39,767 bases of DNA from Eubacteriales bacterium (GTDB lineage: Bacteria > Bacillota > Clostridia > Lachnospirales > Lachnospiraceae): NCBI GenBank assembly GCA_030537135.1, contig JAUNOP010000022.1, positions 1 to 39,767 on the forward strand, read 5' to 3'. A program made the translations under genes and the position numbers. Positions 2,976 to 29,658 of this stretch are shown here, piece by piece. Position 1 is the stretch's first letter. The number at the start of each line of letters is the position of its first letter. The notes beneath the pieces were generated by a model. The model had not been told where the DNA came from. It was given only the letters and a program-made list of their open reading frames with translations, and made no database searches.

Positions 2976-3004
2976 TTGTGAAAATTGAGGAGCTGTGATA
3001 TACT
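2976..3004 (+). promoter_or_regulatory. Sigma-A promoter of the xre-BREX operon
   Basis: The -35 is TTGTGA (2976-2981), followed by 17 bp and the -10 TATACT (2999-3004) with an extended TG (TGATATACT). Transcription would start near 3011 and run through xre into brxA. No terminator is visible before brxL ends, so this is the likely promoter of the whole defence operon. Confidence 0.65.
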
Positions 3005-3069
3005 GACAATTGATTGGTAAATTAGTTCCTGTAAAAGAATTTGAAGATGACGGACATGAGGTGTACGGC

Positions 3070-3282
3070 ATGAAAATAAGCTATAAAAAATTATGGAAAC
3101 AGCTGATCGATGAAGATATGATGAAGAAAGATCTGCAGCAGAAAGCGGGGATCAGCTGGGCTACGATGACGAAAATGTCTAAGGGAGAAGTAGTGAGTAC
3201 GGAAGTGCTTATGAAGGTATGTCAGGTGCTGCATTGTAATGTAGGGGATATCATTGATTTTATTGAAGATGATCCGGAATAG
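3070..3282 (+). CDS. XRE-family transcriptional regulator, leader gene of the BREX operon
   Basis: I chose ATG 3070 because GAGGTG lies seven bases upstream and the protein then starts MKISYKKLWKQLID, as small Cro/CI-type regulators do. A TTG at 3010 would add 20 unlikely residues. The 70-residue product is one HTH domain: KKDLQQKAGISWATMTKMSKG forms helices 2-3, followed by EVLMKVCQVLHCNVGDI. It lies 70 bp upstream of brxA on the same strand. By position it may control the operon promoter, a role filled in some other BREX loci by the larger WYL-domain BrxR. This regulatory role is inference. Confidence 0.75.
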   Translation: MKISYKKLWKQLIDEDMMKKDLQQKAGISWATMTKMSKGEVVSTEVLMKVCQVLHCNVGDIIDFIEDDPE

Positions 3283-3351
3283 AGCAGGGATTTTTATGGG
3301 ACAGCAACCTTGTAATAATTAGAATGGGAATGTAAGGAAGGTAAGCAGCGG

Positions 3352-3972
3352 ATGGCAGGAAATCAGATGATAAGCCCATATAAGGGAAGCGGCCAGATCA
3401 CAAGGGAGAAATTTTTGTTTTATGAGATGCGGACTGCTGCAAGGCTGATGGAGAAAGGGTTAAGTGATTCGGATGTGGAGGAACGGATCGTGGAGGATAA
3501 TTTGTTCCAGTACCCCACAGAGAAATCCATTCGACAAATGGCTAAGACTTGTATTCGGCGTCTGCATGGCCTTCAGGACGAAAGCCTGATAGCGGCAATT
3601 GCGGCAATTCCGCAGGAGACAGCAAAGCAAATCTGCTTGTATGCGATGATGAAGCAGTATCGTTTGGTATGGGATTTTATGATCACGGTGATTGGTGAGA
3701 AATACCGGATGCAGAATTTTTCCTTCAGCCAGATGGATGTGAATGTGTTTTTCATGCAGCTTCAGGAACAGGATGATTATGTGGCTGGATGGAGTGAGAA
3801 TACGATGAAGAAAATCCGGCAGATTTTGATCCGAGTGCTTGTAGAAAATGAGTATCTGGATGACATCAAGGCAGACCACATTAATCCGGTATGGCTGAAT
3901 CTAGTGCTGGAGAATGCCATAAGAAGCAACAACGACGACAGAGCACTGGCGGCGTTCAACTGCTTCTCATAG
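3352..3972 (+). CDS. brxA: BREX protein BrxA (DUF1819)
   Basis: A 206-residue protein at the head of a canonical BREX-1 gene order. Features of the DUF1819 family are visible: an N-terminal FLFYEMRTAARLMEKGLSD region, a middle Tyr-rich helix (LYAMMKQYRLVWDFM), and a C-terminal winged-helix-like part ending in a conserved hydrophobic and basic stretch. Known BrxA proteins are small DNA-binding proteins required for defence in some systems. The length is normal. Its stop at 3970-3972 overlaps the ribosome site of brxB (AGGAGAG), so the two are coupled. An AAGGAAGG sequence upstream serves as ribosome site. Confidence 0.9.
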   Translation: MAGNQMISPYKGSGQITREKFLFYEMRTAARLMEKGLSDSDVEERIVEDNLFQYPTEKSIRQMAKTCIRRLHGLQDESLIAAIAAIPQETAKQICLYAMMKQYRLVWDFMITVIGEKYRMQNFSFSQMDVNVFFMQLQEQDDYVAGWSENTMKKIRQILIRVLVENEYLDDIKADHINPVWLNLVLENAIRSNNDDRALAAFNCFS

Positions 3973-3980
3973 GAGAGAAC

Positions 3981-4568
3981 ATGAACAATATAAACGAGAG
4001 ATTGGATAATCTGAAATTAGAGATACAAAAGCCTGAGTTTCTGGAAGGTAAGGGACTCAGCAATGAGGTGAATATTCGTATTTTCTGTTATGATGCCCAG
4101 GATGAAATGATTGTCCGGCATTTTACGGAGCAGCTGATTGTAGATCAGTCGCTGGAATGCCATTTGATTGAGAGAAATCTGTACAAGGTATTCTTGTCTA
4201 TCTGCGATGATAAGCGTATTACGGAAAAGGCGGTGCAGATGGAAGAAAAGAAAGGAAAAGAGTTCCTGTTCAATAATCTGCAGAAGTTTGCCAATAATAA
4301 GAGCTTTGTGGATAAGATGCAGTATGAACCGCATGAGCCGGGGGATGTGCTGCTTCTGACCGGCGTGGGGGAGGTTTTCCCGTTTATGAGGATCCATTCC
4401 CTTCTGGAAGCATTGCAGCCTGAGTTTCCGGATATCCCGATTCTGGTGATGTATCCGGGAACGTATGACGGAAGATTTGTGCGTTTGTTCGATAAGCTGG
4501 AGCCGAATCCATATTACCGCGCATTCAATATTATTGGAACTGATGGTTCTAATAATCATGTATTGTAG
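3981..4568 (+). CDS. brxB: BREX protein BrxB (DUF1788)
   Basis: ATG 3981 follows AGGAGAG by a normal distance. The 195-residue product starts MNNINERLDNLKLEIQKPEF and contains NEVNIRIFCYDAQDE, GDVLLLTGVGEVFPFMR and PILVMYPGTYDGRFVRLF, all typical of DUF1788. Its biochemical role is not established; it is one of the core BREX-1 genes and lies between brxA and brxC as usual. The gap to brxC is 13 bp with a TAGGAGG ribosome site. No defect is seen. Confidence 0.9.
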   Translation: MNNINERLDNLKLEIQKPEFLEGKGLSNEVNIRIFCYDAQDEMIVRHFTEQLIVDQSLECHLIERNLYKVFLSICDDKRITEKAVQMEEKKGKEFLFNNLQKFANNKSFVDKMQYEPHEPGDVLLLTGVGEVFPFMRIHSLLEALQPEFPDIPILVMYPGTYDGRFVRLFDKLEPNPYYRAFNIIGTDGSNNHVL

Positions 4569-4581
4569 GAGGTACTGACAA

Positions 4582-7500
4582 ATGAGAATACAGGAAATGT
4601 TTTATGACGATATCGACCGTAAGATCAATGGCGTCGTTAAGGTGGACCAAGATGCCGCTGATGTTCTGAAGCAGGAAGTGAAGGAATATGTCATCACGCG
4701 GGATATCCGTAAGCACATGATCACCTTCTTCAATAACTACACCGAATCTTTTCAGGAGCCGACAGCGGATGTGGGCGTGTGGATCTCCGGGTTCTTTGGA
4801 AGTGGTAAGTCTCATTTCCTGAAGATGCTGTCATACCTTCTGGAAAACAAGGAAGTGGATGGAAACAAGGTTGAGGATTATTTCCGTGAGAAGTTTGATG
4901 ATGAGGCGACTTTCATGCAGATTGCAAGCGCAATCCGCGGAGAGACCGACACGATCCTGTTTAACATAGATATCGAAGGATCTATCAATAAGGACAAAAC
5001 TGCTGTTCTACGTGTATTCGCGAAGATGTTTTACAACTATCTGGGCTTCTATGGCGAGAACTTAAAGTGTGCGAAGATGGAACAGTTTATTGATAAAAAG
5101 GGGAAGACGGAAGAGTTCCGCAGAGTGTTTGAAGAAAAGAACGGTTCACTGTGGGTAGAATCCCGGGATGCCTTCGCATTCTTCGAGGATGATGTGGTAG
5201 ATACTCTGGTTGAAGTATTGGGCATGAGCGAGACTGCCGCTCATAACTGGTTTGACGGCACGGAGACCATTGAGACTTCCATTGCTCAGCTTGTATCCGA
5301 GATGAAGGAATATGTGGATGCCAAGCCGAAGGATTTCAGACTGTTGTTTATGATTGATGAGATTGGCCAGTATGTGGGCGACAGCATTGATTTGCTGATG
5401 AACCTGCAGTCGCTTGTGGAGAAGATCGGAAGTGAATGCAATGGAAAGATCTGGGTGGTATGTACTGGACAGGAAGCAATCGATGAAATTATCAAGACCA
5501 GACAGGATCAGTTCTCACGTATCCAGGCGAGATTCAAGACCAGGCTGTCCCTGACGTCTTCCTCTGCAGATGAAGTGATCCAGAAGCGTATCCTCAGAAA
5601 GAAGGATGAGGTAACACCGCAGCTGGAACAGGTATATAATGAGAATGATTCCGTGCTGAGAAATCTGTTCAGTTTTAATTATTCTGCCGGTGATGCGGTT
5701 TTGGATATTAAAGGCTTTAATGGTTCAGGAGAGTTTGCAAGAGACTTCCCGTTTGTACCGTATCAGTTCATCATCATGCAGAAGGTATTTGCCGAGATCC
5801 GCAAGCACGGTAATTCTGGAAAGCATCTGTCTGGCGGTGAGCGTTCCATGCTGTCTGGATTCCAGGAAGCGGCACAGAAGATTGAGGATAAGGATGAGTT
5901 TGCGCTGGCGCCGTTCTATCTCTTCTATGATACGGTTCACACATTCCTTGACAGTTCTATCCGCCGGGTGATCGAGCGCTGCCAGAAGGCGGCTGACACG
6001 AATGCCGGCACCCGGCAGCAGGATGTGGCTGTGTTGAAGCTTTTATATCTGATTCGCTATATCGATGATATCAAGGCAAATCTGGATAATATCGTCATTC
6101 TGATGGCGGATGATATCCGCATGGATAAGATCATCATGAGGGAACAGGTGAGGGGATCTCTTAACCGTCTGATGAGCCAGAACTATATCGGCCGCACGGG
6201 CGATACTTATAACTTCCTGACGGATGAAGAACAGGATATTCAGAGAGAAATTAAGAATACACCGGTTGATACTGCTGCGATCGTGGAGCGCATCGCACAT
6301 ATGGTATTCGGCGATATCTATACAACAAAGAAGTTCCGCTATGGCAAGTATGATTTTGCCTTTGACCAGATGGTTGATAATACCACGGTCGGAGCGGTGA
6401 CAGGCGGCATGAGGCTGAAGATCATGACAGTGGCAGCGGATTCAGAGGAGAAGGCAGAGCTTCGTTTGATGACAGAATCCGCAGGCCAGTCTATTGTGGT
6501 ACTGGCTGATACGCCGTATTATGAATCACTGGAAAATGCAATGAAGATCCGCAAGTATGTGAAACAGAGGAATGTGGCTCAGCTTCCAAAGAGCGTAAGA
6601 GACATCATTGCGAATTACCAGAGTGAAGCCGATAAATATGAGCAATCCGCGCAGACGGATCTGGCGGAAGCCATAACCAATGCGCAGTTCTATGTGGACG
6701 GCGAGAAGATTGAGATCAAGGCGGCAGCTGTTTCCTCAAAGGAAGAGGATCTGGGGAAGAGAGATTATGAGATCAAAAAGGGCAAGGCGAAGAGTGTCAT
6801 TGACCAGGCCCTTGAGTATCTGGTATCCCATGTGTACAGTGATCTGGGTCTGATCGTGGAGAACGCTGAATCGGATGCGGATATCCTGGCGCTTCTGACC
6901 GGTGCCGTCACGATGCTTCCGGGAACGGAGCCGAACAGGGATGCTGCCGCCAAGGTGGAAGAATATCTGGAAATGCAGGATCGGAAGCATCTTCCGACTT
7001 CCATGGCGGATGTTCAGAAAAGATACCAGGCTATTCCCTATGGATGGCGTGAGATTGATATTGCGGCTGTCGTGGCTCTGCTGATTGTAAGGCAGAAAGT
7101 GACGATCAAGTATGCCGGTTCAACGGTGCAGCCAAACAACCCGAAGCTTCCGGACATGCTTAGGAAAAAGAGTGAGATCGGAAAGACGCAGATTTCCAAG
7201 AGACAGGTGGTATCCGCAACAAGGATGAAGGCGGTCAAAGATTTTCTGCGGGATTACTTCAACCTTATGGATGTGCCTGCAGATGAAGACGGCCTGATTC
7301 AGTTTATCATTGATAAGTTTGAAGGTTTGCAGAAGCACTATGAAGGACTTCTGACAAGATATGAGGGACACAAGTATCCGGACAGAAATGTGGTCAGCAA
7401 TGCCGTCACTATCGTGAAGGATGTGCTGTCGCAGCAGAAGGATAACGTGGCTCTGCTTGAGCGTGTCCTTCAGCGGGAAGACAATCTGTATGATGCGCAG

Positions 7501-8181
7501 GACGCTATGCAGAATGTGGAAGCCTTCTTTAAGACACAGATTTCTGTATTCGATACAGCGGTGAAGTTTGAGCAGGATCTGAGGAATGACCTGGACTATA
7601 TCAAAAAGGATGAAGAGGCAAATCAGGCGCTGAACATGATCCGCCTGATTATCATGATTCCTACCAATGGGAAGTATGATTACAAGAGGATCCCGGAATT
7701 GAATGCTCTGATGGCGAAGGTAAAGGCTTCCCATGATGCGATGCTGGAAGAGAAGCGTACAGAGCTTCTGGAAGTAGTCCGTCAGTGTATGGCGGAGATT
7801 CATCAGGCTTTAGACGGCGGTAATTCGACAGCCAAGACAATCAGCGATAAGGCTGATATGTACTATGGACAGCAGAAGGAAAAGATTGCGGAGACGACAA
7901 GCCTGGCACTGATGGAAGGATTCCCGATTCCGATGTGGAATTACCGGGATGATGCTGTTTCCAAGATCGAGTTTAGCAAGCGGCCTCCGAAGTCGGTAGC
8001 TCCGAAGCCCGTGAATCCTGTGAAGCCGGTTGCGAAGAAGACGTATAAGCCGATATTCCGTCAATCGCTTTTGAAGGCGGCAAGGCTGGAAAGCGATGCT
8101 GAGATCGATGCGTATGTGGACAAGCTGAGAGATCAATTGAAGACATTACTGAAGGGTTCAGACGGTATCGATCTTAAGTGA
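4582..8181 (+). CDS. brxC: BREX P-loop ATPase BrxC
   Basis: A 1199-residue protein, the normal size for BrxC/PglY. Walker A is GFFGSGKS at residues 70-77 and Walker B is LLFMIDEIG with D259-E260. A conserved FVPYQFIIMQ segment follows near residue 393. The long C-terminal half is largely helical with coiled-coil character and ends with a Pro/Lys-rich linker before a short terminal helix. BrxC is the large ATPase of BREX, thought to cooperate with PglX and PglZ in both methylation and exclusion. It is cytoplasmic with no membrane segment. It lies 13 bp after brxB and appears intact. Confidence 0.92.
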   Translation: MRIQEMFYDDIDRKINGVVKVDQDAADVLKQEVKEYVITRDIRKHMITFFNNYTESFQEPTADVGVWISGFFGSGKSHFLKMLSYLLENKEVDGNKVEDYFREKFDDEATFMQIASAIRGETDTILFNIDIEGSINKDKTAVLRVFAKMFYNYLGFYGENLKCAKMEQFIDKKGKTEEFRRVFEEKNGSLWVESRDAFAFFEDDVVDTLVEVLGMSETAAHNWFDGTETIETSIAQLVSEMKEYVDAKPKDFRLLFMIDEIGQYVGDSIDLLMNLQSLVEKIGSECNGKIWVVCTGQEAIDEIIKTRQDQFSRIQARFKTRLSLTSSSADEVIQKRILRKKDEVTPQLEQVYNENDSVLRNLFSFNYSAGDAVLDIKGFNGSGEFARDFPFVPYQFIIMQKVFAEIRKHGNSGKHLSGGERSMLSGFQEAAQKIEDKDEFALAPFYLFYDTVHTFLDSSIRRVIERCQKAADTNAGTRQQDVAVLKLLYLIRYIDDIKANLDNIVILMADDIRMDKIIMREQVRGSLNRLMSQNYIGRTGDTYNFLTDEEQDIQREIKNTPVDTAAIVERIAHMVFGDIYTTKKFRYGKYDFAFDQMVDNTTVGAVTGGMRLKIMTVAADSEEKAELRLMTESAGQSIVVLADTPYYESLENAMKIRKYVKQRNVAQLPKSVRDIIANYQSEADKYEQSAQTDLAEAITNAQFYVDGEKIEIKAAAVSSKEEDLGKRDYEIKKGKAKSVIDQALEYLVSHVYSDLGLIVENAESDADILALLTGAVTMLPGTEPNRDAAAKVEEYLEMQDRKHLPTSMADVQKRYQAIPYGWREIDIAAVVALLIVRQKVTIKYAGSTVQPNNPKLPDMLRKKSEIGKTQISKRQVVSATRMKAVKDFLRDYFNLMDVPADEDGLIQFIIDKFEGLQKHYEGLLTRYEGHKYPDRNVVSNAVTIVKDVLSQQKDNVALLERVLQREDNLYDAQDAMQNVEAFFKTQISVFDTAVKFEQDLRNDLDYIKKDEEANQALNMIRLIIMIPTNGKYDYKRIPELNALMAKVKASHDAMLEEKRTELLEVVRQCMAEIHQALDGGNSTAKTISDKADMYYGQQKEKIAETTSLALMEGFPIPMWNYRDDAVSKIEFSKRPPKSVAPKPVNPVKPVAKKTYKPIFRQSLLKAARLESDAEIDAYVDKLRDQLKTLLKGSDGIDLK

Positions 8182-8245
8182 GGCAGAAAATCTTTGATTT
8201 GTTTAACTGAACTTATGCGGAGTTAAGTAAAGGAAGAGTCAACTT

Positions 8246-11200
8246 ATGGATAAAAATGCGATAAAGAAATATGCGGTGTGGGCGCGTAAGGAGTTGATTA
8301 CGCGTGTCACACAGAAGGCAGAGCAATATGAGATTACGGAGAAGAAGACTACTCCTGCGGATGCGGATAGCATCGGCGGCAGGGTGCTTACTGCAGCAGA
8401 AAAGAAGCAGAGGCAGGCATTGATTGCAAAAATCAACCAGGATGGATTTGAACAGGTGATGGAAGAAGTTGCCTATACCTGGTTCAACCGTTTTACTGCG
8501 CTCAGGTTCATGGAAGCGAACAATTATCTGCCGAGCCATACCAGAGTTTTCACAAATGAGAACGGAGAGTTCAAGCCGCAGATTCTGGCGGATGCGATAC
8601 AGCTGGATCTGGAAGGCCTGAATATGGACAAGGTTTTTGCGCTGAAGGATGCAAATAAGACGGAAGAACTGTATAAGTATCTTCTGATCACTCAGTGTAA
8701 TGCTTTGTCCGGTATTTTGCCGCGCATGTTTCAGAAGATTGAGGATTATACGGAACTGCTTCTGCCGGATTATCTTCTCCGTGAGGGAAGTGTAATCGAG
8801 CAGATGATCGCATTGATTCCGGAAGAAGATTGGACGGATCAGGTTCAGATTATTGGATGGCTTTATCAATATTATAACAGCGAGAAAAAGGACGATGTTT
8901 TCGCAGCACTGAAAAAAAATGTGAAAATCACAAAAGAAAACATCCCAGCTGCAACCCAGCTGTTTACACCGGATTGGATTGTTCGCTATATGGTAGAGAA
9001 CAGCCTTGGCCGTCTGTGGCTGGAGGGACACCCGGATGTGAAGGAGCAGTTCCTGCCAACTGAGGAAGAACAGTCTGCCTATGCTGATGGAAATCGTGAC
9101 CTGGAAGATACCAAATGGCATTACTATCTGGAAGAAGCCGAGCAGGAGCCAGAAGTGCAGGCACAGCTCGCTGAGATTCGCAAGGAATACGCTGCACTGA
9201 CACCGGATCAGTTGAAAGTGATCGACCCATGTTCCGGTTCCGGTCATATTCTTGCGTATATGTTCGATGTACTGATGAAGATTTATGAATCTTACGGCTA
9301 TACCACTCGTGAAGCAGTGGCAAGCATTGTAGAGAACAATCTTTACGGTCTGGATATTGATGACCGTGCGGTACAGCTGGCATATTTTGCGGTAATGATG
9401 AAAGCCCGTCAGTATGACCGCCGCTTCTTCATTCGTGGCATTCAGCCCCATGTATATGCCATTGTGGAGAGTAATCATGTAGATAAATTCGCGGTGGATT
9501 ATTTCTGTAACGGCGATGCCAAGCTGAAAGCGGCTATGGATACCATTCTCAGCGAACTGCATGATGCGAAGGAATATGGTTCAATTCTGACTGTGACGCC
9601 ACAGGATTGGACCGCACTGTATGCTCGCTTTGCGGAGATTATGGAAGATATAAATATGTCCCGGGAAACAGCACTGAGAGAACTGTTGCCGCTGGTGCAG
9701 GTGGCGGAAGCATTGGCACAGAAATATGATGCAGTTGTGACGAATCCGCCGTATATGGGTGCATCGGGAATGTGTGGAAAGTTATCTTCTTTTGTGAAAA
9801 AAATATATCCAGATACGAAATCTGATATGAGTACAATTATGATGGAGCGAATGCTAGAAATGTGTACTGTTCATGGGTATATTTCTATGATTAATATTCC
9901 AGTATGGATGTTCTTGTCTAGTTATGAAAAAATGCGAAACATAATGCTTCATAATAATACGATAGTTAATTTGGTGCATCCAGGACGGGGAATTTTTGGA
10001 TCTGATTTTGGCACAACATCATTTGTTGTGTCTAAAACACATATTAAAAATTATGTGGGGAGATATCATCGGCTATTTGATAGCCAAGGCGAAGTTCATA
10101 GTGTAGAGGAACGTAGAAACGCATTTTTGCAAAGAAAAGGATTATATACTATTCAACAAGAAAATTTTTTTAAGATTCCTGGAATGCCGATAGCCTATTG
10201 GTTACATCATCAAATATATGAAATGTATGGAAATTATAAAACCATGGCAGAAATTGCTACTCCGAAAGTTGGCATGCAGACATCAAATAATGATAGATAT
10301 CTAAGATTATGGCATGAAGTAGATTTTTCTGAATTTAATGCTTCCAGTTATGGATTGAAGTGGATTAAATATTTGAAAGGTGGAGCTTACAGAAAATGGT
10401 ATGGTAATTTAGAATATCTTTTGTTTTATAATAAAACACCGGACTTTATTCTGCAGCAAAAAAATGCTAGGGTGTTAGATTTAGGTTTCCTGAAAAAGAA
10501 AAAATGCACATGGACAGATTTAACTATTAGTAAAAATAGTTTCCGTATTGCACCAGATGATACATTTTATGATATTTCTGGACATTGTTTTTTCCCGAAA
10601 GAAGAAGATCAATTATGGCTTTTGGGATATGCAAATACATTAATATTTGCAGAATTGCTTAAAGTATTTAATTCTACGATACATTGTCAAGTTGGAGATG
10701 TTGGGAAAATTATTGTACCAGATATCGGAGAACAAAAAAATAAAGTTTCTGTTCTGGCAGGAGAAAATGTTGAATTTTCAAAAAAAGATTGGGATTCCTT
10801 TGAAACCTCATGGGATTTCCGACGTCATCCACTGCTTCGCAAAGTTTCTACTATTGCCGAAGCCTTTGACCGGTGGCAGTCTGAATGTGATGTTCGTTTT
10901 AACCAACTGAAAGCCAATGAGGAAGAACTGAACCGTATCTTTATTGATATTTACGGCTTGCAGGATGATTTGACACCTGAAGTTGAGGATAAAGATGTCA
11001 CCGTTTGCAAGGCTGACCTTGGCAGAGATATTCGTTCCTTCATTTCCTATGCGGTTGGCTGTATGTTTGGTCGCTACTCTTTGGCTGTAGAGGGACTGGT
11101 ATATGCTGGTGGAGAATGGCCTCCTATGGATAAGGCAATTGGTGTAAGGGAGCTGTTATATCCGGAAGCTGATCCGAATATATGCAGCTGGATGGATGCG

Positions 11201-11797
11201 TATGGAGAATTTTGCCCGGATATTGATAACATTATTCCTATATGTGACGATGAATATTATGATGACGATATCGTCGGCCGTTTCGTAGAATTTGTGAAGA
11301 CAGTCTATGGCGAAGATACTCTGGACGAAAACCTGAAATTCATTGCCGATGTCCTGGGCGGCAAAGGCCAGCCGAAGGATGTGATTCGGAATTATTTCCT
11401 GAATGATTTTTACAAAGACCATTGCAAAATTTATCAGAAACGTCCGATCTACTGGCTCTTTGACAGCGGCAAGAAGAATGGTTTCAAGGCTCTGATCTAT
11501 ATGCATCGCTATCAGCCGGACACCATTGCTCGTATACGCACGGACTATGTCCATGAACAGCAGAGCCGCTACCGTACCGCTATTGTTGATTTGGAAAGGC
11601 AAATAAATGCTGCCCCCACTTCCGAAAGGGTGAAATTGAACAAGCAGCTTGCAAAGCTTCAGGCACAGGCAGAGGAAGTGCGGATTTATGAGGAAAAAAT
11701 CCATCACCTGGCCGATCAGTTCATTTCCATTGATCTGGACGATGGAGTAAAAAAGAATTATGCAATATTTGCAGATGTTCTGGCGAAGATTAAGTAG
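8246..11797 (+). CDS. pglX: BREX-1 adenine-specific DNA methyltransferase PglX
   Basis: A 1183-residue protein. The SAM-binding motif is DPCSGSG at residues 327-333 and the catalytic N6-adenine motif IV is NPPY at 500-503. PglX methylates one adenine of a non-palindromic site to mark self DNA, and the C-terminal half contains the target recognition region. Codons about 508-851 (nt 9765-10800) are visibly more AT-rich and Asn/Lys/Ile-rich than the flanks. This implies a swapped specificity segment that starts directly after motif IV. The frame is intact throughout, including an A8 run at 8912-8919. A 64-bp gap with a weak inverted repeat separates it from brxC. Confidence 0.92.
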   Translation: MDKNAIKKYAVWARKELITRVTQKAEQYEITEKKTTPADADSIGGRVLTAAEKKQRQALIAKINQDGFEQVMEEVAYTWFNRFTALRFMEANNYLPSHTRVFTNENGEFKPQILADAIQLDLEGLNMDKVFALKDANKTEELYKYLLITQCNALSGILPRMFQKIEDYTELLLPDYLLREGSVIEQMIALIPEEDWTDQVQIIGWLYQYYNSEKKDDVFAALKKNVKITKENIPAATQLFTPDWIVRYMVENSLGRLWLEGHPDVKEQFLPTEEEQSAYADGNRDLEDTKWHYYLEEAEQEPEVQAQLAEIRKEYAALTPDQLKVIDPCSGSGHILAYMFDVLMKIYESYGYTTREAVASIVENNLYGLDIDDRAVQLAYFAVMMKARQYDRRFFIRGIQPHVYAIVESNHVDKFAVDYFCNGDAKLKAAMDTILSELHDAKEYGSILTVTPQDWTALYARFAEIMEDINMSRETALRELLPLVQVAEALAQKYDAVVTNPPYMGASGMCGKLSSFVKKIYPDTKSDMSTIMMERMLEMCTVHGYISMINIPVWMFLSSYEKMRNIMLHNNTIVNLVHPGRGIFGSDFGTTSFVVSKTHIKNYVGRYHRLFDSQGEVHSVEERRNAFLQRKGLYTIQQENFFKIPGMPIAYWLHHQIYEMYGNYKTMAEIATPKVGMQTSNNDRYLRLWHEVDFSEFNASSYGLKWIKYLKGGAYRKWYGNLEYLLFYNKTPDFILQQKNARVLDLGFLKKKKCTWTDLTISKNSFRIAPDDTFYDISGHCFFPKEEDQLWLLGYANTLIFAELLKVFNSTIHCQVGDVGKIIVPDIGEQKNKVSVLAGENVEFSKKDWDSFETSWDFRRHPLLRKVSTIAEAFDRWQSECDVRFNQLKANEEELNRIFIDIYGLQDDLTPEVEDKDVTVCKADLGRDIRSFISYAVGCMFGRYSLAVEGLVYAGGEWPPMDKAIGVRELLYPEADPNICSWMDAYGEFCPDIDNIIPICDDEYYDDDIVGRFVEFVKTVYGEDTLDENLKFIADVLGGKGQPKDVIRNYFLNDFYKDHCKIYQKRPIYWLFDSGKKNGFKALIYMHRYQPDTIARIRTDYVHEQQSRYRTAIVDLERQINAAPTSERVKLNKQLAKLQAQAEEVRIYEEKIHHLADQFISIDLDDGVKKNYAIFADVLAKIK

Positions 11798-11811
11798 GGA
11801 GGCTGCAGCGG

Positions 11812-12888
11812 ATGGATAAAAAAGAATGGATAACTGTTGATCACGCTTTTCTGGAAAATGTGTCTGAGATACTGACTCAGGCAAAAAAGAATGCCAAAAC
11901 AGCAGTTAACTTATCAATGGTGTATGCTTATTTTGAGATTGGCAGGAAGATTATTGAGGAGGAGCAAAACGGGAAAAGCCGTGCAGCTTATGGTACGCAG
12001 CTGTTGAAAGAACTCTCTGCTTATTTGACGGGAAAACACGGAAAGGGATATTCGGTTGGTAATTTAAAGAATATCAGGCAGTTTTATAGGGTCTACGTTA
12101 ATGACCAAATTGGCGAAACAGTGTTTAGCCAATTCAAAAATCTGCCCACAGTCAGTACCGGACGGAGATTTTACTTGAGTTGGTCTCATTATTTGAAGCT
12201 CATGCGCATTTCAAATATTGAGGAGAGACATTTTTACGAGATAGAATCTGTGAAAAACGGTTGGAGTCTGACCGAATTAAAGCGGCAATACAACAGTGCC
12301 TTGTACGAACGGTTGGCTCTTAGCAAGGATAAAGCTGAGGTATATCGTCTCGCTTTGGAAGGGCAAACGGTTGAAAAACCGCAGGACGCAGTGAAGGATC
12401 CCTATGTCCTGGAGTTCTTAGGGCTGCCGGAACTTCCATCTTATTCAGAAACTGAGCTGGAGAGCCGCATTATAGATCATTTACAACAGTTTCTTTTAGA
12501 GCTGGGTACAGGCTTTGCCTTTATAGGAAGGCAGGTGCGGTTTACGTTTGATGAAGAACACTTTATTGTCGATCTGGTTTTTTATAATCGGCTGTTGCGC
12601 TGCTTTGTCCTTTTTGACCTGAAGATTGGAGAATTGAAGCATCAGGATATCGGACAGATGCAGATGTATGTTCACTACTATGACCGTGAAGTAAAGTTGC
12701 CGGAGGAAAATCCTACCATAGGTATCATACTCTGCAGGGACAAGAATAATGCTGTTGTAAAAATGACGTTGCCAGAAGATAACGAGCAGATTTTTGCCAG
12801 TAAATATGAGACAGTATTGCCAAGCAAAGAAGAATTGCAAAAGCTTCTCCAGGAACACATTTCGGAAGAAGACAAGGAGGCGTTATGA
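11812..12888 (+). CDS. DUF1016 (YhcG-like) PD-(D/E)XK nuclease-family protein inside the BREX operon
   Basis: A 358-residue protein. The N-terminal part (about residues 1-170) is the DUF1016 N-domain: a helical region with VYAYFEIGRKIIEEEQ, GYSVGNLKNIRQFY, and WSHYLKLMRI. The C-terminal part carries a nuclease fold with FIVDLVFYN (D254) and FDLKIG (D269, K271), fitting a PD-(D/E)XK active site. Family members occur beside type I restriction and other defence genes, and their role is unclear. The start is 14 bp after pglX, and the end overlaps pglZ by 4 bp (ATGA), so it is translated as part of the operon. It is not a core BREX gene, so it may add a cutting or accessory function; that is inference. 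Confidence 0.85.
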   Translation: MDKKEWITVDHAFLENVSEILTQAKKNAKTAVNLSMVYAYFEIGRKIIEEEQNGKSRAAYGTQLLKELSAYLTGKHGKGYSVGNLKNIRQFYRVYVNDQIGETVFSQFKNLPTVSTGRRFYLSWSHYLKLMRISNIEERHFYEIESVKNGWSLTELKRQYNSALYERLALSKDKAEVYRLALEGQTVEKPQDAVKDPYVLEFLGLPELPSYSETELESRIIDHLQQFLLELGTGFAFIGRQVRFTFDEEHFIVDLVFYNRLLRCFVLFDLKIGELKHQDIGQMQMYVHYYDREVKLPEENPTIGIILCRDKNNAVVKMTLPEDNEQIFASKYETVLPSKEELQKLLQEHISEEDKEAL

Positions 12889-15482
12889 TGGATGAGGAGA
12901 GAATTAGTCAGGAATTGAATCAGCGTTTTGCCGCGCCGCTTCCAGAGTTCTACAAACGCCGTATTATATTCTGGTATGACGAAGATGGAGAGTTCCGTGA
13001 GAGGCTGGATGAGGTTGCGCTGAATAATGCAAAACTGATCGCATTGACCGGAACCAATAACTTTGCGGTGAAAAAACTTCTGTCGGTGGATGATACCATG
13101 AACAATTATCTGGTATATTGTCCTCTGCCCTATGAGAAGTCGGAGGATAACTGGCTTCTGGATATAGAAATGTACAGCGAAGAATTCCGGGCGGATCTGA
13201 TCGCTATCTGGATGAAAGAGCTGGGAATTCCATCAACGCATGCGATGCGTAAACAGGTGAAGGACTACCGAAAGTTTTTCAAAGCAAAGGTGCGCAGAGA
13301 TAAAATTGCAAGCCAGAATAAGGTGCCAAGCGTTCCAGCTCAGCTGCATATGGCTGTGATGGGTGCTTTGGGCGGTATTAAAGATGTCACGCCGGCGGCG
13401 ATCATCAAGGAAGTGCTGAAGGCCGGTATGGACACCGACACGAATGATTTGTATCAGGAGTTTGTAAACTATGGTGCGGATAAGGTTTTTTGGAGCATGG
13501 TGAAGCAGGGATCAGGTTACGTTTCTGAGCAGCCAGATATCGCAATGCTGGCAACGCATATACTTCTGACAGCGACCACAAGGACGATGAGGCTGGAATA
13601 TCTGGCGGGACTGGACGGGTTCATTTCCTCGCCGCACCAGGCGTTTTGCTTTGATTTTATTTCTGACTGGCTTCATGCTGAAGATTGGGAACAGCTTATA
13701 GAGATCGCAAAATCTGTGGAGGATGAACTGAAGCTGCCGCAGCGGTTCATGAAGCTGGAGGTCAGTGATTTGGTAGATACGGAAGCCTTTCCGTGTCTGG
13801 ATGAAGTGATCCTGATCAAGCTGATGACAGAGATCGGAGATCATATCATTGATGTAGATGTGATCAAGCGGACAGTAGAGAAACGCCGGACATGCGTGAA
13901 CTATGAGCCATTCAAAGACTATTACGAGGGAATCCTGCAGGTGGCGAACATGCAGGCATTCTATAAAGAGCATTCAACAGGCTTCCATTCTGCTGAAGCG
14001 AAGAAGGTCTGGAAGGAATATACTTCCGAGTATTACAAGATGGATACTTATTACCGTCTGTTCCATAAGAGTTACGGGGAAAGCCTGAAGGCATACAATT
14101 TCGATCTGCACGACCTGTTCCGTTCTGTCATGGAGAAGGTGGAAGGTCTGTATAAGAACTGGTTTCTGGGACAGCTTGGCGGTAACTGGTCTGCCGTTTG
14201 TTCTGAGGAACTGGCGAAGCACGGCAGGATTCTGGAGGTACCGCAGCAGACGGATTTCTACAGGAATCATATTGACAATGCGGATAACAGGGTGTTTGTG
14301 GTTATTTCTGACGCCCTGCGGTACGAAGCGGCTGCTTCCCTTGCGGAACAGTTAAGACGCGAGACACAGGCGGATGTGAAGCTTCAGGATGTCCAGGGGA
14401 TTTTCCCGACCATTACAAAGTTTGGTATGGCTGCTTTGCTTCCCCATAAGGAGCTGGAGGTGGAGCAACACGGAGATGTGCTGAAGGTTATGGCTGACGG
14501 TGTGCCGACAGATGCCGGATACCGGGATAAGATACTGAAGTCCGCGAAGGCAAATAGTGTGGTACTCAAATATAATGATCTGGTTAATGCGAAAAGGGCT
14601 GAACGGAGTGCAATGGTGAAAGGAATGGAAGTGGTGTACATCTACTACGATACCATTGATGAGGCAAGCCATACAGCGGATACTATGGTGTTTCCGGCTT
14701 GCGATGACGCAATCCAGGAATTAAAGAACCTGACAAAGATCATCTGCAATGATTTCGGGGCAACTCATATCCTGTTCACGGCAGATCACGGTTTTCTTTA
14801 TACCTATAGCCCAATGACTGAGGATGACAAGATTGATAAGACCGGATTTGTCAATCGTATTGTGGAGTACGGCAGACGGTTTGCAATCATGGCGAAGGGT
14901 TCTGACCCGGATTATTTGCAAAAGGTTCAGTTTTTGGGCGGATCATCCGAGTATGATGCTTTTGCACCGAAGGAAAATGTAAGAATTAAGATGAACGGTA
15001 GCGGGCTTAATTTCGTGCATGGTGGTATCAGCCTGCAGGAAATGGTGGTGCCTGTCATTGATTATCATTTTCTGAGAAACCAGTACAAGCAGTATCAGCG
15101 GAATCAGAAGAAGTATGATACAAAGCCAGTGGAGGTTAGCCTTCTGTCGGCCACGCATAAAGTCAGCAATATGATCTTCTCACTGAACTTCTATCAGAAG
15201 GAGCCAGTGGGGGACAATCGTGAGGCAGCGACCTATCAGCTGTACTTTACGGACAGCAATGGAAAGCAGATCAGTGACATTGCAAAAATCATTGCGGATA
15301 AGACCAGTGACAACGGACAGGAGAGGACATTCCGGTGTAGCTTCAATCTGAAGTCGCTGAAGTATGACAACAAGGAAATTTATTATCTCGTGATCGCAGA
15401 CGCAGATGGCATGGTCGTATCCAGGGAAGAGTTCCAGATAGATATTGCCTTTGCGGTGGATGAATTTGATTTCTTTAGTTAA
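12885..15482 (+). CDS. pglZ: BREX-1 alkaline-phosphatase-fold protein PglZ
   Basis: An 865-residue protein starting at ATG 12885, overlapping the previous stop, with GGAGG upstream. Metal-binding motifs of the PglZ domain are visible: VFVVISDALRYEAA with D476, DEASHTAD with H596, and FTADHGF with D634-H635. These match the alkaline phosphatase superfamily core. The N-terminal region (about 1-380) is the family's helical domain, and a beta-rich C-terminal domain follows. PglZ is essential in BREX systems, where it is thought to interact with PglX and BrxB; its natural substrate is not settled. The length is normal and the gene appears intact. Confidence 0.92.
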   Translation: MMDEERISQELNQRFAAPLPEFYKRRIIFWYDEDGEFRERLDEVALNNAKLIALTGTNNFAVKKLLSVDDTMNNYLVYCPLPYEKSEDNWLLDIEMYSEEFRADLIAIWMKELGIPSTHAMRKQVKDYRKFFKAKVRRDKIASQNKVPSVPAQLHMAVMGALGGIKDVTPAAIIKEVLKAGMDTDTNDLYQEFVNYGADKVFWSMVKQGSGYVSEQPDIAMLATHILLTATTRTMRLEYLAGLDGFISSPHQAFCFDFISDWLHAEDWEQLIEIAKSVEDELKLPQRFMKLEVSDLVDTEAFPCLDEVILIKLMTEIGDHIIDVDVIKRTVEKRRTCVNYEPFKDYYEGILQVANMQAFYKEHSTGFHSAEAKKVWKEYTSEYYKMDTYYRLFHKSYGESLKAYNFDLHDLFRSVMEKVEGLYKNWFLGQLGGNWSAVCSEELAKHGRILEVPQQTDFYRNHIDNADNRVFVVISDALRYEAAASLAEQLRRETQADVKLQDVQGIFPTITKFGMAALLPHKELEVEQHGDVLKVMADGVPTDAGYRDKILKSAKANSVVLKYNDLVNAKRAERSAMVKGMEVVYIYYDTIDEASHTADTMVFPACDDAIQELKNLTKIICNDFGATHILFTADHGFLYTYSPMTEDDKIDKTGFVNRIVEYGRRFAIMAKGSDPDYLQKVQFLGGSSEYDAFAPKENVRIKMNGSGLNFVHGGISLQEMVVPVIDYHFLRNQYKQYQRNQKKYDTKPVEVSLLSATHKVSNMIFSLNFYQKEPVGDNREAATYQLYFTDSNGKQISDIAKIIADKTSDNGQERTFRCSFNLKSLKYDNKEIYYLVIADADGMVVSREEFQIDIAFAVDEFDFFS

Positions 15483-15500
15483 GGCGGAAAGAGAGAATAT

Positions 15501-17567
15501 ATGGAGTCTATCGATGATGGCGCAGTAAATAAGCGTGAGGAAATAAAGAATAAGCTCCGAGAGAGTTTTGATGGGAAGATTGTCCGGAAGGATCTGACGA
15601 AGAAGATCAAGGAAGGGGCAAACGTGCCGGTGTACGTGCTGGAGTTCCTTCTTGGTCAGTATTGCAGTTCCGATGACGATTCCATCATTGAGCAGGGCGT
15701 CCAGAATGTGAAGCGCATCCTGGCGGATAACTTTGTCCGCCCGGATGAATCCCAGAAGGTTCTCTCAAAGCTCAGGAAAAGGGGAAGTTATACCGTTATC
15801 GATATGATCACGGCACGCCTGGATATGAAGCGGAATCTTTATATCGCCAGCTTCTCCAACCTTGGGATTACGAATGTCCTTCTGGAAGACGAGTATCCGG
15901 AGAAGTATGACCGGCTGCTTTGTGGTGGTATATGGTGCATTGTGCAGCTGGATTATGAATATGTGGAAGAGGAAAAGAAGAATGGGATGCCGGTTCAGAT
16001 CCGGAAGCTGACTTCAATCCAGATGCCGCATGTGGAGATCGAAGAACTGAAGGAAGGACGCAAGCAGTTTACAGAGGATGAGTGGCTGGATATCATGATG
16101 CGTTCGATCGGTATGGAGCCGGACACTTTGTCTGAACGTGAGAAGTGGCTGCTTCTTTTGCGTATGGTTCCGTTAGTCGAGAATAATTTCAATCTATGTG
16201 AACTGGGTCCGAGATCCACTGGTAAATCTCATCTGTATAAGGAGATATCGCCAAACAGTATTCTGGTATCCGGCGGGCAGACCACGGTGGCCAATCTTTT
16301 TTATAACATGGGAAGAAAGACTATTGGCCTTGTGGGTATGTGGGATGTGGTTGCTTTTGATGAGGTGGCCGGCATTAATTTTAAAGACAAAGACGGGATC
16401 CAGATTATGAAGGACTATATGGCGTCCGGATCCTTTGCCAGGGGCAAGGAAGAAAAGGCTGCTTCCGCGTCAATGGTATTTGTAGGCAACATCAATCAAA
16501 GTGTGGATGTGTTGCTGAAGACATCCAGTCTGTTTGATCCATTTCCGCCGGAGATGGGAACCGATACGGCCTTCCTTGATCGTATGCATTGTTATATTCC
16601 GGGATGGGAGATTCCGAAGTTTAGGCCGGAACATTTTACAAATGACTATGGTTTCATCACGGATTATCTGGCAGAGTTCCTGCGGGAGCTGAGAAAAGAA
16701 CAGTATGGAGATGCTTTGGATGGGTATTTCCGTTTGGGACGAAACCTGAATCAGAGAGATACGATTGCGGTTCGGAAGATGGTGGGCGGTCTTGTAAAGC
16801 TCATGTATCCGGATGGCAAATATACAAAAGAGCAGTTGGAAGAGATCCTGAAGATTTCTCTGGAAATGCGCCGGCGTGTCAAGGAGCAGCTGAAGAAGCT
16901 GGGTGGCATGGAATTCTATGATGTAAACTTTTCTTATATTGATCTGGAAGACATGTCAGAGCATTATGTATCAGTACCGGAGCAAGGCGGCGGCAAGCTG
17001 ATTCCGGAAGGAATGTGCAATCCGGGGCAGGTTTATACCGTAGCCCAGGGGAAGTCTGGGATGATCGGAGTATTTCGCCTGGAAGGACAGATACTTCCGG
17101 GGAATGGCAAGATGGAGCGGACAGGATTGGGTTCTGACCGTGATGCGAAAGAATCTTCCAATACGGCTTTCAATTATCTGAAGGCGAACGGCAACAGGAT
17201 CAGCGGATCTATTAGCACGACAACAAAGGATTATATCATCAATTATCAGGATCTGCAGGGAATTGGTATGACTGGGAAGCTGGCTCTGCCGACGTTGATT
17301 GCACTGTGTTCCATCGCTTTGGGGATATCGGTGCAGAGTTCCACAGCGATCCTTGGTGAGATCAGTATCAGCGGCACGCTGATCAAAGTGGATAACCTGG
17401 CGGATACGCTGCAGGTATGTCTTGACAGTGGTGCAAAGAAGGTGCTTCTGCCGCAGACATCATTTGTGGATTTTGTGACTGTGCCGCCGGAACTGATGAG
17501 TGCATTTCAGTTAATTCCGTACCAGAGTGCAGAAGATGCGGTGTTTAAGGCACTGGGAGTTGAGTAA
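15501..17567 (+). CDS. brxL: BREX Lon-like AAA+ protein BrxL
   Basis: A 688-residue protein. Walker A is GPRSTGKSH (from residue 236, K242-S243) and Walker B is VAFDEVAG (D287-E288). The C-terminal domain (about 560-688) is Lon-protease-like, with [18 protein letters not shown] and a terminal FKALGVE typical of BrxL. By eye, the positions of the Lon Ser-Lys dyad are not conserved: IGMTG stands where Lon has GPSAG, and LADTL where Lon has LKEKL. This suggests no peptidase activity and fits a DNA-binding AAA+ role. It is the last core gene, 18 bp after pglZ, with an AGGCGGAAAGAGAG ribosome site region. Confidence 0.92.
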
Positions 17568-17670: not shown

Positions 17671-18048
17671 ATGGGAAAATTACCAAAATTCACACATGAG
17701 AATGGCATTGATTATGTTCTGGTTGGTAATTACTATTTACCTATGATCCGGCTATCGGAGGAAAAGCGTCCTATTGGACGCTGGGGGCAGATGCACAGGA
17801 ACTATTTAAAAGAGCGCCATCCTGCACTTTACAGCAGTCTGCTTTTATCAGGAAAACTTAGTACATATCTCGTCAATCTGGATGAACAGGCAGAGAGCAG
17901 GCTGGAGATTATTATCAGTCAAATGAAAGTGGCTGAAGGTGTGACAGAAGAACTGAAAGCTACGGATCAGCTTCGATGGATTCAAATGATGAGTAGCATT
18001 TGCAACAGAGCGGAAGAAATTATAAAATATGAAATGATTTATGTGTGA
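17671..18048 (+). CDS. tnpV: TnpV-like transposon protein
   Basis: A 125-residue protein with an AGGAGGTCGCAT ribosome site before ATG 17671. The segments [48 protein letters not shown] and [15 protein letters not shown] match the TnpV family first named in the clostridial transposon Tn4451. Its function is unknown, and it does not look like a recombinase. It lies 103 bp after brxL on the same strand and marks the point where the defence operon gives way to transposon DNA. It appears full length. Confidence 0.8.
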
Positions 18049-20587: not shown

Positions 20588-20972
20588 AAGCTGCGGTACA
20601 GTGGGCTTCACCGGGGAAATGCGGGAGCCGATTGACAAGGCGTATTATATCTGCCAGACGTATAACCGGCTGGGGAAGAACGCCTGCACCAGCCATAAGA
20701 TTAAGGCGAGGGATCTATACAACCTTGTGCTGAAGGACATCCAGGATTTGGCGGCGATGGTGCGCCAGTCTGACGAGCAGGAAAACGATGTGAAAACTTT
20801 TATCGGGGAAATCCGGAAGTACGCCACAATCCAGGAACTGGACGAAGCGGTGCTGAACCGGCTTATCAGCCGCATTGTGGTGGGTGAGGTTCAGAAGATA
20901 GACGGGCAGAAATACCAGGAAGTCAGGATTATTTATAACTTTGTCGGTGAGATACCGGATATGACAGAATAG
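20588..20972 (+). pseudogene. Large serine recombinase remnant (C-terminal end)
   Basis: The frame reads DKSCGTVGFTGEMREPIDKA, then YYICQTYNRLGKNACTSHKI, and ends at 20972. This is the zinc-ribbon and DUF4368 tail of large serine recombinases of transposons such as the Tn4451/Tn5397 type. The catalytic N-terminal domain with the nucleophilic serine is absent, so it is inactive. The frame begins only 16 bp after the permease stop, so the two are joined by an old recombination event. A strong terminator follows. Confidence 0.8.
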
Positions 20973-22358: not shown

Positions 22359-22493
22359 CTTGCTATTTTTGTGATTGGAGGGGCGGTCAAAATCTCTACG
22401 GCTCTGCCCCGTGGGAACGGCGCGGGGTCGCATGTGCAAATTTTCATATTCAAACGGGGTATTAACCGGGTGTACAGATTGGAGGTGAAATAT

Positions 22494-23446
22494 GTGGCAA
22501 AGGACGGTACCAACAGAGGCGGTCCCAGACCGGGAACCGGATCAAAGCGGAAACCGCTTCTGGACAAGATACAGGACGGCACTGCCAAGGGAACCTTGGT
22601 GATGCCGGATGATCTCCCGGGGTCTACGGATATTCAGGGAGAGGATGTCCCTCCGGTCAGGGAATACCTGACGGCAAAGCAGAATCCCGGTGAGGAGAAT
22701 TCCTTCCGGCAGCTGCGACTAAACCAGTGGGTGAAGCAGTCCGTGCGGTGGATGCCCATGGATAAATGGGATGCCTGTGGCTTCCCTGTATCTGAGGATG
22801 ACTTAAAAGGTCGTGTCTGCTATGTCGGTCTGGACTTGTCCTCCACCACGGAATCACAGCCTTTGTGCTGGTGTTCCCTCCGCTGGATGAGACGGAGAAA
22901 TACTATGTGCTGCCATATTTCTGGATACCAGAGGAGACGGTGGACTTAAGAGTCAAGCGTGACCATGTTCCCTATGACCTGTGGGAGCGTCAGGGAATCC
23001 TGATGACCACGGAAGGGAACGTAGTGCATTACGGCTTTATTGAGAAGTTCATTGAGCAGCTTGGAGAACAATACAACATCCGGGAAATCGCCTTTGACCG
23101 CTGGGGTGCGGTACAGATGGTGCAGAACCTGGAAGGAATGGGCTTTACCGTAGTTCCCTTTGGACAGGGCTTTAAGGATATGTCCCCTCCTACCAAAGAA
23201 CTGATGAAGCGGACTTTGGAGCAGCGCATTGCCCACGGCGGACATTCGGTTCTTCGGTGGATGATGGACAACATCTTCATACGCACGGATCCGGCAGGAA
23301 ACATCAAGGCAGACAAAGAGAAATCAACAGAAAAGATTGACGGTGCAGTGGCGATCATCATGGCTCTTGACAGAGCCATCCGCTGCGGCAACGACACCAG
23401 TGCTTCGGCTTATGACAGCCGGGCATTTTATTCATATAATTTTTGA
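22494..23446 (+). pseudogene. Phage terminase remnant: small-subunit start fused to large-subunit end
   Basis: GTG 22494 has a GGAGGTG ribosome site and starts like a P27-type small terminase (AKDGTNRGGPRPGTGSKRK). Near 22680, after REYLTAKQ, the frame passes straight into large terminase sequence (LRLNQWVKQSVRWMPMDKW, then YVGLDLSSTT of the nuclease domain). The rest of the small subunit and the whole ATPase domain of the large subunit are missing. One base is lost near 22850, where DITAFVL would be expected. The large-subunit frame resumes and runs to 23446 with HYGFIEKFIEQLG and FDRWGAVQMVQNLEG. It is a dead prophage remnant. Confidence 0.8.
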
Positions 23447-29291: not shown

Positions 29292-29658
29292 TAAGACTGT
29301 GGCAAGGTAATAAGAAGTTGTGTTACAAGGAGGCAGCAGCTCGCAGAGATTTTGCATCTTATTGCCTTAAAATGTATCTTACCTTCCGATGTATTGAAAA
29401 AATGGGGAAAAGTAGTAGAATATCACCATATTTTAATATAAAAGTCCCAGACAGCGGCTGAGCAGGTGGTCAAGCTTGCCCCTGCAAATGTTCAGACATT
29501 GAACGGGCTGACCTGTATGAGTAAGTAAGCCGACAGGCTGGATTCCTCATACAGGCGGCGATTACGGAAGTGCACAGCACGTAGTAATCGATTTTTATTT
29601 ATGGTGGTGATTTGCTGTCAGGCAAATCATGTCCGTTTAGGAAGGAAGGCTGAATATT
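29292..29658. other. Intergenic region with a small inverted repeat
   Basis: No gene was identified. GATTTGC (29609-29615) and GCAAATC (29622-29628) form a 7-bp hairpin 30 bp before the hydrolase start, which could act on its expression. The rest is AT-rich and has short protein-like scraps that I could not assign. Confidence 0.4.

Follow-up and report, generated by a model that had tools for sequence, protein, structure and literature searches.

A predicted YhcG/DUF1016 nuclease gene between pglX and pglZ in type I BREX as probable accessory defence cargo

Introduction

Bacteriophage exclusion (BREX) operons frequently carry genes additional to their core set, and several of these have been described. 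BrxU, a type IV enzyme of the GmrSD family encoded within the BREX operon of E. fergusonii, suffices for defence by itself (PMC8565348). BxaP, which also works alone, is embedded both in BREX loci, where it lies between PglXI and BrxHII of the type 3 system, and in type I restriction–modification (RM) loci (PMC10799925), while DarTG2 is located between hsdS and hsdR (PMC12255303). A survey using PADLOC 2.0 and DefenseFinder reported that, of ∼9000 genomes having pglZ and pglX together, ∼7000 carry one or more genes between these components, and named BrxU and PARIS as tenants (PMC11341690), and PD-(D/E)XK restriction endonucleases are reported as the most prevalent auxiliary nucleases beside or within BREX loci (PMC12839542). 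Here we describe a gene for a YhcG/DUF1016 protein located between pglX and pglZ on contig JAUNOP010000022.1 of a Lachnospiraceae genome (assembly GCA_030537135.1), the whole 39,767 nucleotides of which were analysed and are called the window below. An earlier note on this DNA, made from the letters alone, had taken it that no nuclease of core BREX-1 was proven to cut. This premise is outdated, metal-dependent nuclease activity having been demonstrated for PglZ (PMC12205998).

YhcG/DUF1016 proteins have the active-site motif E-D-E(I/L/V)K (PMC1189080). In E. coli, YhcG has been linked to HsdMRS, McrABC and replication, and deletion of yhcG is synthetic-lethal with alleles of dnaB, dnaN and parE (PMC2672614). 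The window protein matches the models of PDC-S02, a candidate defence gene of PADLOC-DB v2 belonging to a gene set made through guilt-by-embedding (PMC10855318, PMC12988326). PDC-S02 was found in 39 of 100 P. aeruginosa strains (PMC10855318) and on 2715 occasions in rumen genomes (PMC13356809). Cargo in the gap between pglX and pglZ and PD-(D/E)XK nucleases embedded in BREX are both already published. The portions of the literature covered contained no mention of a DUF1016, YhcG or PDC-S02 gene in this gap; the source preprint of the PDC set (10.1101/2024.01.29.577857) and supplementary files lay outside these searches and may describe the pairing. The sole article matching both BREX and DUF1016 mentions them in unrelated places in the portions covered (PMC8547009), and the term YhcG is absent from the main text of PMC12839542, the supplements of which lay outside this check.

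Our reading is that the window gene encodes a self-contained accessory anti-phage nuclease which occupies the pglX-pglZ cargo slot and acts beside BREX. We give this a probability of roughly 0.6.

Results and discussion

The DUF1016 gene and its product

The gene (positions 11812–12888, + strand) starts with ATG and encodes 358 amino acids. It stands within a complete type I BREX operon (3352–17567, +) having brxA, brxB, brxC, pglX, the DUF1016 gene, pglZ and brxL in this order. Open reading frame (ORF) analysis, Pfam and PADLOC all confirmed this placement, and the D254 and D269-x-K271 residues pointed out earlier are present. Pfam recognised DUF1016_N at residues 17–167 (11860–12312, +; E 1.3e-38, 132.6 bits against a cut-off of 32.8) and the nuclease domain YhcG_C at residues 191–346 (12382–12849, +; E 2.8e-60, 203.2 bits against a cut-off of 32.5), and these were the only domains found at E 0.001. 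PADLOC gave matches to 32 models; among the 25 models listed, 24 were PDC-S02, the best of them (2e-140, 466 bits) covering residues 2–353. DUF262 and DUF1524, the domains of BrxU, were absent from the window protein in the Pfam search. BrxU and the DUF1016 protein are alike in being extra nucleases of a BREX-1 operon but differ in domains and in place, BrxU lying between brxC and pglX. BREX loci and type I RM loci harbour BxaP as well as DUF1016 genes, but the two proteins are different.

The catalytic set of the window protein comprises E217, D254, D269-x-K271 and Q282-x3-Y286 and is near-invariant in 80 homologues, with E217, D254 and K271 kept in all 80 and position 269 being D or E in all 80; the active site does not vary freely between homologues. 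In the structural model of YhcG_C the active site is held by an alpha-beta-beta-beta-alpha-beta core, which is the PD-(D/E)XK fold. The closest fold to the nuclease domain is that of EndoMS/NucS, followed by the nucleases Card1 and Can2 bound to cyclic tetra-adenylate (cA4). The likeness to EndoMS/NucS is one of fold in the nuclease domain; no NucS/DUF91 match was found by Pfam at E 0.001, and the N-terminal part gave weak matches, to folds other than EndoMS/NucS. This N-terminal part is helical in the model and has a weak likeness to the DNA-binding domains of ParB/Noc. Sequence searches of the window protein against solved structures gave nothing convincing. Pairwise nonsynonymous divergence (dN) among DUF1016 copies was low, 0.06–0.20, while synonymous divergence (dS) came to 1.76 in one pair and 4.5 in another and lay beyond the computable range in four more. 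The low dN set against the high dS indicates that DUF1016 behaves as a protein under selection.

The stop codon of pglX is at 11797, leaving a 14-bp gap before the DUF1016 gene as previously described. The 4-nt overlap with pglZ also described applies only if pglZ starts at the ATG at 12885; the ATG at 12888 aligns with the start of homologous PglZ genes and is favoured, and this reduces the overlap to 1 nt. The claim that the protein is made together with the core BREX proteins holds as far as the packing on one strand goes, and this packing suggests that the gene is co-transcribed and co-expressed with the operon.

Recurrence of DUF1016 between pglX and pglZ

BREX loci were collected from a family sample of 299 genomes including that of the window (DUF1016 matches in 135 of them and PglZ matches in 38), from named GTDB contigs, the scan of which contributed the best 80 of at least 589 confirmed places, and from a phylum sample in which 20 of 26 further near-full-length PglZ places were fetched. 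Loci sharing an identical PglZ tail (200 residues) were removed as duplicates and loci with no detected upstream pglX were left uncounted. This gave 103 BREX loci having pglX upstream of pglZ. Full-length DUF1016 was present in five of these (the window, L191, which is the same as L104, L209, L161 and L081) and fragments were present in two (L192 and L208). Among the BREX gaps inspected, DUF1016 was seen only in that between pglX and pglZ.

Two further samples were added, namely 148 genomes around a Paludibacter locus (L224, taken as Bacteroidota) and 282 around a locus from Proteobacteria (L245), and nine regions holding their strongest new PglZ places were fetched, the Bacteroidota contributing strongest matches only. 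Eight of the nine were BREX loci in which pglX precedes pglZ; one of these, L330, has the order pglX-DUF1016-pglZ. No BREX gene was found in the ninth fetched region, L329. In total, 6 of 111 BREX loci, the window included, have full-length DUF1016 between pglX and pglZ, and in all six it has the orientation of the BREX operon. Because best matches were sampled, the slot counts lean to BREX resembling that of the window. One of the six, L209, is from a metagenome-assembled genome labelled Planctomycetia, the PglZ of which is nevertheless 62% identical to that of the window, so mis-binning is possible; the assembled sequence of L209 has a split pglX frame.

A rough estimate, assuming uniform placement, genomes of 2900 genes, 30 slots and either 151 or 300 DUF1016 genes, and counting the window among the cases, put the chance of four such cases in the family sample at 3e-11 to 5e-10. 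The placement of DUF1016 in BREX exceeds chance, and other genomes show the gene in the same place and direction. The gene is thus not a peculiarity of one strain, and the recurrence across lineages for which the earlier note proposed to test is observed.

The pglX-pglZ gap as a cargo site

The cargo slot spans 11798–12887 (+) in the window. Among the 103 loci this gap contains a same-strand ORF of at least 90 amino acids in 67, is below 100 bp in 33 and is intermediate in three, and embedded genes are common in the survey of PMC11341690 also. The other BREX gaps were filled less: brxC-pglX in 20 of 86, pglZ-brxL in 9 of 92, brxA-brxB in 0 of 53 and brxB-brxC in 0 of 60. Named tenants of the slot include Schlafen AlbA_2, a TIR protein (SpbK), Fic (SoFic), a Septu ATPase (PtuA), DUF4357 and the pair PDC-M14A/B. 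The L081 slot (5136–10007, +) has a double cargo of a 1222-residue Tmn-like YobI ATPase followed by DUF1016. Slot proteins in L144 (304 amino acids), L147 (462) and L159 (475) matched nothing in Pfam or PADLOC, and two in L169 matched nothing in Pfam. These findings fit the idea that BREX operons serve as platforms on which defence cargo is exchanged, and not as fixed machines.

Two further arrangements were seen in the slot. A protein of ∼300 residues is found in L144 (11316–12227, +), L146, L148 and L149, in three of the four directly before a Schlafen gene. PDC-M14A/B is found in L153 (3283–4513, −), L155 and L171 and, by matching lengths, in L187, L221 and L254, and it too stands before a Schlafen gene in several loci.

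SpbK TIR, SoFic and Schlafen proteins look like abortive-type effectors. Given such company, DUF1016 might be a backup or suicide effector which stays off until a phage blocks the methyltransferase system, much as PARIS responds to Ocr. The cA4-bound Card1 and Can2, which come after EndoMS among the closest folds, agree with this, as do hosts which include methylation-based systems (BREX and type III and type I RM, see below), and backup nucleases in BREX have been proposed by Rakesh and Krishnan (PMC12839542). However, neither an inhibitor gene nor a sensor domain or ligand pocket came to light, no detailed search for them having been made, and many DUF1016 copies have no methyltransferase detected alongside. 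We regard this explanation as quite improbable.

The slot is empty, 13–17 bp, in the relatives L143, L178 and L179. One of these is L179, Clostridium sp. Marseille-P3244 (genome G695), in which the slot is 17 bp, BrxC is 96% identical to that of the window and no match to YhcG_C was found anywhere in the genome. Compared in 250-bp blocks, the two BREX operons are 86–97% identical over window positions 3000–9749 and 81–94% identical from 13000 onwards. Between these lies a divergent tract, about 9750–13000 (+), which takes in the part of PglX beyond the NPPY motif, the slot and ∼100 bp at the start of pglZ.

This tract suggests recombination, and a DUF1016 gene could then be a passive hitchhiker on a recombining pglX-pglZ segment, or a repair or replication nuclease, with no role in defence. 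The synthetic lethality of E. coli yhcG with dnaB, dnaN and parE alleles (PMC2672614) and the closest fold being that of a repair endonuclease of EndoMS/NucS type are in keeping with such a role. Against it are the recurrence in BREX beyond chance, the placement in RM loci also, the largely defence-type nature of the other slot cargo and the purifying selection on DUF1016. We consider an absence of any defence role very improbable.

The N-terminal half of PglX is 89–95% identical between the window and L179, and nucleotide identity falls to ∼50% right past NPPY (window 9750–10749). Many close BREX pairs share this split between the halves of PglX, as expected if the recognition half is exchanged. 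The comparison of the window with L179 suggested that DUF1016 moves as one cassette with the specificity half of PglX. Close BREX pairs (PglZ identity at least 75%) were compared, and the mean identity of the C-terminal half of PglX was 62.4% for pairs with the same kind of cargo (39 pairs), 56.4% for those with both slots empty (7) and 53.6% for those with different cargo (97), the mean PglZ identity also differing among these groups (89.7, 86.1 and 82.8, respectively). As the C-terminal half diverges in all cargo groups and PglZ identity differs between them, a clean linkage of DUF1016 to this half of PglX was not shown.

L192 has a DUF1016 fragment, 93% identical to the first 217 residues of the L191 protein, followed by a Schlafen gene and pglZ, and L208 retains ∼96 DUF1016 residues with pglX in pieces too. 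In L073 DUF1016 is intact and brxL full length while pglZ is reduced to its two ends, and brxA, brxB, brxC and pglX were not seen within the ∼8.8 kb fetched upstream. Together with L179, these loci indicate that BREX occurs without DUF1016 and that DUF1016 occurs without a working BREX.

Phylogeny and contexts outside BREX

In an 80-row tree the six BREX-linked copies, L073 included, need six changes, and in a 93-row tree to which L330 and 12 viral copies were added the seven BREX-linked copies need seven; the trees were made by a quick method with long branches flagged, and the changes do not separate gain from loss. A single BREX clade was rejected on the 93-row tree (approximately unbiased (AU) test, p=0.00012), and pairwise identity among the seven copies is 25–57%. 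The simplest reading is of separate acquisitions by different BREX loci. A fixed or core BREX-1 subunit is ruled out since the gene is missing from most loci, including the otherwise very similar L179, and does not form a single BREX lineage. For the same reasons, and because the slot holds unrelated defence-type genes, the proposal of the earlier note that this is an undescribed functional variant of BREX is not upheld. What the six full-length copies from different parts of the tree, in the same slot and with a close empty-slot BREX for comparison, do provide is a repeated natural experiment, by which the function of the uncharacterised, often-reported candidate YhcG/PDC-S02 can be tested directly.

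The sister of the window copy is L033 (80% identity), located in a type III RM system where it is flanked by mod (N6_N4_Mtase) and res (ResIII). Another DUF1016 gene in the genome of the window (L039, G000:C21:5088-6119, −) is 58% identical and likewise lies between mod and res of a type III RM system. Overall DUF1016 lies between mod and res in three of the four type III loci detected (L033, L039 and L101) and after res in the fourth (L046), and it lies directly before hsdR in two of the four type I loci detected (L043 and L075), the remaining two (L048 and L096) stopping near a contig end. For 66 of 80 homologues the context was ‘other’, meaning that up to three genes away neither BREX nor type I or type III RM was detected. 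As each RM subunit was sought with a single seed protein and some contigs end early, RM contexts are under-counted and ‘other’ over-counted. The neighbours checked by Pfam in such rows were housekeeping genes (FeoB, EF-G, melibiase) in several, a Cas3 gene directly downstream of DUF1016 in L110 and a type IIG-like methyltransferase upstream in L049. The nearest relatives of the L104 and L209 copies on the tree have the context ‘other’. L072 is a 3-kb contig (1–3004) with two different DUF1016 genes in near-tandem, one nearest to the L161 copy and the other to the L081 copy, and the nearest relative of the L073 copy is L078, which adjoins a short brxL-like ORF; if L072 and L078 were relabelled as BREX, they would pair with rows already counted.

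These contexts bear on whether the nuclease depends upon BREX. It could join the BREX complex and cut the unmethylated DNA recognised by PglX, adding to PglZ. The gene order with its 14-bp gap and 1–4 nt overlap, the operon orientation of the six full-length cases and the positions between mod and res or right before hsdR would all be consistent with such an effector. The lack of a BREX-specific clade, the homologues with no detected BREX or RM neighbour (allowing for the over-count), several of which are near housekeeping genes, and the fragments in two BREX loci together with the L073 gene surviving beside BREX remains all speak against it, and we judge it unlikely. A broader proposal, which we hold to be distinctly unlikely, is that DUF1016 is a portable nuclease partner of N6-adenine methyltransferase systems, placed between modification and cutting genes (pglX/pglZ, mod/res, hsdM.../hsdR) and sparing self DNA via the methyl mark of its host. 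Were this so, DUF1016 would give BREX a true site-linked cutter.

A phage origin was also considered. DUF1016 relatives were found on 17 viral contigs and in 15 of 50,697 phage records as against 461 of 72,556 plasmid records. Of the viral copies, two with an in-frame stop, one partial copy and two near-copies were left off the tree, and the other 12 need 11 changes.

Proposed action beside BREX

For an accessory nuclease acting beside BREX, the following scheme may be envisaged from the gene arrangement and the domain folds. The protein would be co-expressed with the BREX operon, its helical N-terminal domain would bind DNA and its C-terminal PD-(D/E)XK domain, like EndoMS/NucS in fold, would cut phage DNA, with branched or replicating DNA structures being plausible targets. 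It would then work in parallel to BREX and benefit the host by covering phages which escape or block the methylation-based defence, as BrxU does.

The remainder of the operon and its surroundings

The other BREX genes, all on the + strand, were assigned using Pfam and PADLOC. They are brxA (3352–3972), brxB (3891–4568), brxC (4582–8181, Walker A GFFGSGKS), the methyltransferase gene pglX (8246–11797, NPPY at residue 500), pglZ (12885–15482, or more likely from 12888) and brxL (15501–17567, Walker A GPRSTGKS). The true start of brxB is probably further in, as the best PADLOC match begins at residue 31 and the ORF as listed runs over the end of brxA. The window PglZ keeps D476, T511, D634, H635 and H712, which are invariant among 11 PglZ proteins and probably correspond to residues tested in E. 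fergusonii; with these residues kept, there was no sign that DUF1016 compensates for a dead PglZ. Rfam at gathering thresholds gave no match inside the BREX operon.

Downstream of BREX there is debris of mobile elements, namely pieces of a terminase large-subunit endonuclease in two overlapping frames (22371–23446, +) and, beside them, a recombinase remnant (20601–20972) and TnpV (17671–18048). Further along the window a Clostridiales-1 RNA (RF01699, 76.2 bits) is found at 29436–29600 (+).
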